From Marinitoga sp. 1197 (lineage in GTDB: Bacteria; Thermotogota; Thermotogae; Petrotogales; Petrotogaceae), in the NCBI RefSeq assembly GCF_001021165.1, contig NZ_AZAY01000045.1, positions 1 to 56,778 on the forward strand: a stretch of 56,778 nucleotides of DNA, given 5' to 3'. Positions within the stretch are counted from its first letter, which is position 1. Every line of letters begins with the position of its first letter. A program made the position numbers and the translations under genes. The notes below the pieces were generated by a model. It was not told the origin of the DNA and ran no database searches. It worked only from the letters and a program-made list of their open reading frames with translations. Shown piece by piece: positions 148-31,928 of this stretch.

Positions 148-175
148 TTACTTTTTTGTGTTTTTATGGTATAAT
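148..175 (+). promoter_or_regulatory. Extended -10 promoter of a small transcription unit
   Basis: A perfect TATAAT lies at 170-175 preceded by TG one base away (TGGTATAAT, extended -10). A poor -35-like TTACTT lies at 148-153. The same TATGGTATAAT string precedes the genes at 32374 and 36263, which supports its being a real promoter. Transcription should start near 182. Confidence 0.65.
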
Positions 176-181
176 AAATAA

Positions 182-253
182 TGAAAATAAAAAATACCTA
201 AGGGGGGTATAGGGGCCGCCGCATTGGTAATCCATGCCGTGCGGCTCTTTTTT
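182..253 (+). ncRNA. Candidate small RNA of about 70 nt with its own promoter and terminator
   Basis: Between the predicted start (about 182) and a T-run at 248-253 no credible reading frame exists; the only ATG frame at the start is six codons. The 3' half folds into a long GC-rich hairpin (213-247, loop TAAT at 228-231, single-base bulges only) followed by TTTTTT, which is a textbook intrinsic terminator. The unit is convergent with rnr, whose stop is at 257. It could instead be a leftover attenuator or a terminator serving rnr, although no T-run follows the hairpin on the minus strand. Confidence 0.4.
194..210. promoter_or_regulatory. CsoR/RcnR/FrmR-like operator: ATACC-TAAGGGG-GGTAT
   Basis: An inverted repeat ATACC/GGTAT encloses a G-tract and sits just downstream of the predicted transcription start. 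This layout resembles operators of the CsoR/RcnR/FrmR metal- or aldehyde-sensing family, whose sites are short inverted repeats around G/C tracts. No such regulator gene is in the window, so the assignment rests on shape only. Confidence 0.3.
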
Positions 254-28189: not shown

Positions 28190-28200
28190 ATAGAAAAATG

Positions 28201-29615: not shown

Positions 29616-31928
29616 CTAATTGACTTTAAAAAAAGAAATAATATCGGTTAGTTTTTCAGAACTTTTTTGGAGTTTTTCAGATTGTTTTATTAATGTATTT
29701 ATGACCTCTGTTTCGTTATTTATTACTTTAGTAAAATCTAAAATTTCTTTTTTGGATACTTTTAAGAAAGAATTTACTTCGCTTTTGCTTTTATCGAATG
29801 ATTTCAAAACATTATTTTGTTCTTCAATGATATTTTTTAGAATATCAAAAATTCTGTCTAATTCTACCGTAAGATTATTTATTTCATTCATATCTTTTTC
29901 AAATTTATCCATTATTTTATCTAAAGAAGTAATATTTTTTTGTGAGGATTGAACTTCATTTAATAATATTTTCATATCATTACCAATTAAACCAATCTGA
30001 CTTGAAATATCTTCAGCAATATTATTTGTTTCAATAGATAAGCTTCTTATTTCATCTGCAACAACTGCGAAACCTTTTCCTGCTTCACCTGCTCTTGCAG
30101 CCTCTATTGCAGCATTTAATGCTAATAAATTTGTTTGCCTGGAGATGTCAGTAATTTTTTCAACAAAGTCAAATATTTGTTCTACCTTTTTATTAAAGTT
30201 TCTAAAGCTATTAGAGAGATTTATAGTTAAATTATTTATTAATTGTGTGGAGCTTTTTGTTTTGGAAGTCATATCTTTTGTTATCGTATTAAATTCACTT
30301 AATTTGTTTATGGTTTTTTCTATAGTATTTGATTCATTTAATATATTATTGCTATTTTCAAAAAGAATTTCCATGTTTTTATCAAGAGAACTAAGAAAAA
30401 TTTCAAGATCATTCATAAGTTTTTTAACGCTTGTAACGATATTTTCTATAGTATTTTTTGTATTCTCTAATTTTTCTGAGGAAGTGTCAATCTCTTTTGT
30501 AGCAGCATTTAGTCTCTTTACATTTTCATTTAAATTCTTAAACATAGAAATCAGGAAATCAATAGTATCATGAATTTTTTTCATCATATGACCAATTTCG
30601 TCATTTTTTCTTTTTTGCAATTTTTCAATATCTTTTAAATTACCCTGAGATATATTATCAAGGTTTTGGGCCACAATATATAAATCCTTTGAGAACCTCT
30701 TTCCCATATAAATAGATATTATTATTGAAATTATAATAATTATTGCAATGATTAACAAAATAATATTTAGAATTTTTCTCATGTCTATGTTTAAATTTAT
30801 AGAAATACGTTGTGTTTTGAATTCTGGCAAGGAAAAATTGCTTTTTAAACTTATATTTAAATCAGTTTTTGCTTTTATCAGTGGTTTTGATATCTGGACA
30901 TACATTAAAGGAAAAATTTGTGAAGTTGTATAAAAACTCCTCGTATCTTTTTTTAGCAATTTTTCAGTAATAAATTTATTTATATTGGAAAGATTGAATT
31001 TTAAATTAGATGTTGGAATATTGCCGAATAATGGGTGTCCGGATGATGAATATATAACGATATATGCATTTATTAAATTTCCTATTTCAACAATATCGTT
31101 ATATCCGAATTCTTTTAATCCGACCAATAATCCTGTTATTTTTTGTGTTGAAACAGGATCATATACAGGTGTTAAAATAAGAAAATAAGGTTTATTTTCT
31201 ATGAAAGTCACTTTGCTTAAACCATAAGATAAATTTTTTGAAATTATTTGAGATGAAATCATTTTAACCAAACTAATAATATTTAAATTTTTTAAATTAT
31301 CTTTACCAGCCATATAACTTTCAGCTTTTTTCTGGATTTTATATATTTCACCTCTTATTGAAATTTCAAAAGAATTTTTTCTTGTAACAATTTTTGGATT
31401 AACCAACCACAATTGAATACCATCAAATTTTTGTAAGTCTGCATAAGGCTGTAATAAACTATATCTATCAACAATAGAAATGGACTTTGAAGCTGATTTT
31501 GTTTTTAAGTCTGAACTTCTACTAATAGCATTTAAAAAATCTTTTAAATTCTTTATGTTTTCTTTTATTTTGTTTTCAAATATAGAAAATAAAGTTGATA
31601 AATTTTTATCATAATTCTCTATAAAAAAGTCTTCAAATTTTTTATTTACAGAATCATTTAATTTCTCTATTTGTCTTGAGATATCCATATTATATTCTTT
31701 TATCTGTTTTTCCAGAAGTTTATTATATTCATCAAATTGTTTTTTGTAATTATTTTGAATAACAGATATTTGTGAATTTACATTTTGTTTTATAATATTT
31801 TCCTGATTTTTTATAGAATAATTTACGAAAAAAGTAACAATTAATAAAGGAATGATGGATAAAGAAAGGATTATAATACCAATCTTAAAACCTATAGAAT
31901 TAAATATTTTAATATTAGAATTTTTCAC
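29616..31928 (-). CDS. Methyl-accepting chemotaxis protein with a long coiled-coil sensor region
   Basis: The 770-residue receptor has an N-terminal membrane helix (about 12-30), a large extracytoplasmic region of about 350 residues that begins with a heptad-rich coiled coil (about 35-130) followed by a Cache-like domain, a second helix (about 388-408), a HAMP linker and a cytoplasmic signalling domain with the hairpin tip [20 protein letters not shown] and [17 protein letters not shown] (about 598-635). It should signal through CheA/CheW. The start is GTG at 31928, 5 bases after AGGAGGG. No other che genes are in the window. Ligand unknown. Confidence 0.93.

Follow-up and report, generated by a model that had tools for sequence, protein, structure and literature searches.

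Organization of the unit between the upstream terminator and rnr

The start of the window (the whole stretch of 56,778 nucleotides of Marinitoga sp. 1197 analyzed here) raises the question of what is made from a short interval that carries a promoter, an inverted repeat, and a terminator and lies tail to tail with rnr. The earlier note on this DNA had read the interval as a regulated small RNA, possibly under a metal or aldehyde sensor of the CsoR/RcnR/FrmR type. On the evidence of sequence comparison, the unit is probably a small RNA gene of approximately 70 nt that is specific to the genus Marinitoga. Its near-constancy in all seven available species of this thermophilic genus makes a small regulatory RNA very probable, whereas control by such a sensor was not borne out.

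On the plus strand, positions 1 to 260 of the window present, in this order, a terminator, two TGTTAC elements, a −10 box, the repeat, a hairpin, and a T-run. The terminator (positions 48 to 82) is the intrinsic terminator of the upstream neighbor and was retrieved by a terminator scan, which found one in the sequence against a mean of 0.1 in shuffled sequences. The gene that it serves lies off the contig end and is Fur family-like in the flanks of five of six relatives. The upstream TGTTAC element (115 to 120; TGTTAA in G006) is placed 31 bp ahead of the second, the TGTTA..TGTTA spacing being the same in all seven Marinitoga genomes, G002 included. The promoter core, TGTTAC..TGGTATAATA, spans positions 146 to 176, and the extended −10 box TGGTATAAT was read from the sequence at positions 167 to 175. 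The match to a −35 element is poor, and this promoter was absent from the output of the promoter scan. In Marinitoga, TGTTAC or TGTAAC is found repeatedly a short distance 5′ of −10 boxes; the copA promoters of three genomes (L071, L072, and L073) carry TTTGTAACAAAAAA, and the promoter of the SRP RNA (window position 28200) carries ATGTAACATTT.

From the position of the −10 box, transcription is predicted to start at positions 181 to 184, giving a predicted small RNA at positions 181 to 253 of the plus strand. The inverted repeat ATACC-N7-GGTAT (194 to 210) consists of ATACC (194 to 198), TAAGGGG (199 to 205), and GGTAT (206 to 210), with a G6 tract at positions 202 to 207. In the RNA it corresponds to a 5′ hairpin with the Shine-Dalgarno-like AAGGGGGGU, and on the minus strand to a weak hairpin with a U-tract after it. 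The GC-rich terminator of the small RNA (211 to 253) is formed by a hairpin at positions 211 to 248 and a T6 tract at positions 248 to 253. The convergent neighbor, the open reading frame of rnr (RNase R), occupies positions 257 to 2455 of the minus strand with its stop at position 257. The arrangement described in the earlier note, from the upstream terminator to the tail-to-tail position of rnr, was confirmed, extended −10 box, G6-containing repeat, and GC-rich hairpin included.

The RNA from position 182 to 256 folds with a predicted energy of −26.7 kcal/mol (z score of −2.11), a value equaled by 6 of 200 shuffled sequences. Structure prediction at 37, 55, and 65°C gives the 5′ hairpin as well as the terminator each time, with the 5′ hairpin mostly retained at 65°C. 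Among 1,000 shuffles of this one sequence, 19.9% contain at least one palindrome of the same kind (5-bp arms with at least 2 G/C and a spacer of 5 to 9), so the palindrome alone proves nothing. It is conservation across the genus that places the complete unit far beyond chance.

Conservation within Marinitoga and distribution outside the genus

A blastn search with positions 130 to 262 retrieved the unit 3′ of rnr in all seven genomes of the genus, with E values of 1.3e−32 or better. The promoter is its most conserved part: 30 of the 31 positions of the core are invariant in the seven genomes, compared with 2 of 138 fourfold-degenerate sites in rnr, where 1,249 of 1,995 aligned coding positions are invariant. 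The SRP RNA gene of the window, used as a control, has a promoter with 27 of 28 positions invariant in the genus; part of this promoter lies within the end of the frame upstream, and past this overlap 15 of 16 positions are invariant. This is the pattern of a stable-RNA promoter in Marinitoga, and the small-RNA promoter is conserved about as well. The GC-rich hairpin and the T-run are likewise present in 7/7 genomes. Strict invariance extends to 28 of the 38 hairpin positions and to 10 of the 17 positions of the palindrome, with two indels and the loop reducing these shares. Double compensatory changes were found in none of the 22 base pairs, since the stems hardly vary. The A-tract preceding ATACC is kept in all seven genomes.

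The promoter, together with its TGTTAC-31-TGTTAC pair, is also retained in G002, which has a ferritin gene facing away from the unit where the other five flanks have a Fur family gene (Pfam was run on the G002 ferritin and on one of the five Fur family genes). The spacer between ATACC and GGTAT, in an alignment register set by hand, is 7 nt in the window, 6 nt in five genomes, and 5 nt in G003. The last of these genomes has G5 and G3 in place of G6 and G4, and several of its frames are broken or fused, namely, an rnr without its usual stop, a MurB-like frame, and a split copA. Homopolymer errors in the assembly of G003 are likely, so the spacer of 5 is weak evidence.

Outside Marinitoga, blastn with the same stretch returned just short, low-score pieces from the remainder of the 41 genomes covered, with E values of 6.7e−6 or worse. 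A covariance model derived from the seven genus sequences scores 83 to 102 bits on these and at most 27.9 bits elsewhere. In the search of 21 genomes of the family, 20 had some match at an E value of up to 1. In the search of 103 Thermotogota genomes, 12 had a match at an E value of 0.1 or better, and 7 of these 12 belong to the genus; no homologue of the unit was found elsewhere among the 103. The best match outside the genus, the 27.9-bit match in G010, was rejected as a homologue, as it shares the GCCGC terminator stem alone and differs in the 5′ part; the other matches are weaker. The sequence 3′ of rnr in 10 genomes from other genera also lacks the unit (10 of 14 rnr loci outside the genus); an 11th locus, in G016, ends inside the gene and was excluded from this comparison. 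No Rfam 15 family matched at its gathering score, and the permissive scans remained far below the gathering scores. Phages and plasmids gave no match to the unit, and there were no matching viral contigs. A broader scan of genome contigs retrieved two loci, one in Marinitoga lauensis and the other in the alphaproteobacterium Celeribacter litoreus, of which the latter was taken as a chance match restricted to the letters of the hairpin. A literature search on small RNAs and Hfq in Marinitoga and in Thermotogae/Petrotoga returned no title on Marinitoga small RNAs.

Alternative readings of the repeat and of the linkage to rnr

According to PMC3902906, the operators of CsoR and RcnR consist of TAC/GTA repeats flanking G-tracts, with type 2 sites typically reading TAC-X9-GTA and type 1 sites having a spacing of 6 to 9. 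The repeat in the window reads TAC-X9-GTA around a G-tract and bears a fair resemblance to this published form. A DUF156 repressor (CsoR/RcnR/FrmR) could accordingly sit on ATACC-N-GGTAT just past the start and be released by binding of a metal or an aldehyde, as the earlier note had supposed. At least one PF02583 gene occurs in 20 of the 21 genomes of the family, and Marinitoga sp. 1197 has two. G002, which is 99% complete, yielded no PF02583 candidate and yet carries the exact palindrome. The search of the seven genus genomes for further copies retrieved no second site within 2 mismatches; it used the common form of the palindrome and misses the indel variants of the window and of G003. The TAC..GTA spacing changes with the species, from X9 in the window to X8 in five genomes and X7 in G003 (the last maybe a homopolymer error). 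The repeats upstream of copA are also unlike that of the unit, for example CCCACCCCCC..AGGGGTA. The missing repressor in G002, the single site, the different copA repeats, and the variable spacer together favor an RNA hairpin of free loop length over a DNA operator. The operator reading was rejected on these grounds and is considered very improbable. The unit is an example of a G-tract palindrome that can imitate the operator of a metal sensor, in which a relative lacking the sensor argues against that function.

What the genus itself appears to use for CsoR is suggested by the position of other repeats. In the copA genes located upstream of csoR these follow the −10 box, as in AACCCACCCCCCAACCATAGGGGTAA of the window genome, of which G005 has a near copy, and they are the probable CsoR sites of the genus. 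Repeats of C-tracts and G-tracts occur directly after the copA −10 box and similar ones near csoR (L033 at 1680 to 1730, L070, L071, L072, and L073), with the appearance of the CsoR operators of the genus. The second CsoR family gene of Marinitoga sp. 1197 (G000:C23, L029) is codirectional with genes that presumably correspond to FeoA and FeoB, which they resemble. G002, devoid of any CsoR family gene, is also the genome in which ferritin replaces the Fur family neighbor of the small RNA.

The position next to rnr allows two further interpretations. The region could be nothing more than a terminator that serves rnr and its convergent neighbor in both directions, with an incidental promoter: a U-tract comes after AUACC-N-GGUAU on the minus strand, the A-tract ahead of ATACC is kept in 7/7 genomes, and changes in loop length suit a hairpin. 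The rnr-strand hairpin is nevertheless weak (−2.9 kcal/mol in the window and −3.5 kcal/mol in G006), and the promoter persists in G002 despite the different neighbor on the other side. This interpretation is unlikely, although the rnr-strand hairpin may help to end rnr transcripts. The stronger form of the same idea, in which the region is only the rnr terminator, fails because the promoter is what is conserved most. A cis-antisense RNA to rnr is somewhat easier to entertain, of low probability but still in contention. The predicted RNA overlaps the presumed 3′ untranslated region (UTR) of rnr, to which it is complementary by position, and ends 3 nt from the stop codon; it could in this way set the stability of the rnr mRNA or mediate feedback by RNase R. 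Its linkage to rnr is fixed in 7/7 genomes even where the other neighbor changes, but antisense action leaves the conservation of the exact sequence unexplained.

A leaderless mini-ORF starting at the ATG at position 181 and followed by the terminator, encoding a leader peptide or a microprotein, is the hardest reading to sustain and is regarded as highly improbable. The ATG is kept in 7/7 genomes, five of which read MK..IPRGV, and some indels in the leader are multiples of three. However, the window reads MKIKNT and G003 reads MKDKNT, with earlier stops, and nothing is encoded past the terminator in the same direction. The frame has 6 codons in the window, 8 to 10 in five relatives, and 6 in another, and its C-terminal ends differ. 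The statement in the earlier note that the unit has no reading frame thus holds for anything conserved, the 6-codon frame being variable among relatives.

Proposed action of the small RNA and its relation to known systems

The small RNA gene remains the best explanation of the unit, which has three features of such genes: its own conserved promoter, its own intrinsic terminator, and no conserved reading frame. Of the regulated small RNA proposed originally, the RNA gene stands, with promoter, transcribed part, and terminator conserved in 7/7 genomes, while the sensor control finds no support in view of G002 and of the single site. RNA polymerase carrying the housekeeping sigma factor would start near positions 181 to 184 and finish at the T-run, around position 253, and the resulting RNA would be abundant. 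Its U-tail and A-rich leader would bind Hfq, and it would act in trans through the G-rich, Shine-Dalgarno-like loop of the 5′ hairpin. The ATACC/GGTAT repeat would then be part of the RNA, besides giving the weak hairpin on the rnr strand, rather than a repressor site.

Hfq is encoded in all seven Marinitoga genomes, and the RNA is probably bound by it. Short intergenic bacterial small RNAs of the Hfq type form a general class with their own promoter and intrinsic terminator, and several of them carry C-rich (anti-Shine-Dalgarno) loops. The Marinitoga RNA resembles this class in layout, size, A-rich leader, U-tail, and the presence of Hfq, but it differs in having no Rfam match, in being restricted to one genus, and in its G-rich loop. 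Within the phylum, 13 putative noncoding RNAs (12 according to the abstract) with unusually conserved promoters are described for Thermotoga maritima in PMC3636130. These are also small gene-less transcripts, the Marinitoga unit being deduced from sequence, and according to the same paper their structure could not be defined. The Marinitoga RNA has no homologue found in the rest of the phylum. It would provide a concrete, well-bounded small RNA gene for a phylum with few described.

Exact seed searches with the complement of the loop returned fewer sites than the reversed control (24 versus 84 and 19 versus 27). Seed complements below the control give no support for the trans-pairing step, and since the loop complement is not enriched, no target can be named. 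Leaving out the sites at the small-RNA locus itself, 19 of the 24 and 13 of the 19 sites were inspected, and most are antisense to a long coding frame. Nine of the 19 inspected sites share one repeated sequence, which proved to be the reverse strand of 23S rRNA in the single case examined; the 10-mer common to the small RNA and 23S rRNA was judged a coincidence.

The loop of the 5′ hairpin holds AGGGGGGU, which is Shine-Dalgarno-like and similar to Marinitoga ribosome-binding sites; for several seed matches, such a site lies on the opposite strand just 5′ of an ATG. Pairing with the 16S rRNA tail of the same genome is predicted at −11.9 kcal/mol, which is reached by 33 of 2,000 segments of 71 nt drawn at random from the contig, and cofolding with this tail is predicted to open the 5′ hairpin. 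A speculative model is that AGGGGGGU opens to pair with the 16S anti-Shine-Dalgarno sequence, or with anti-Shine-Dalgarno-like sequestering stretches of mRNAs, and so tunes translation in Marinitoga. The model is unlikely; if it were true, a tiny stable RNA would tune translation in this genus.

Elsewhere in the window, between positions 30000 and 35000, both the GC skew and the AT skew change sign, with the GC skew passing from about −0.15 to between +0.2 and +0.3, as at a replication origin or at a switch in gene orientation.
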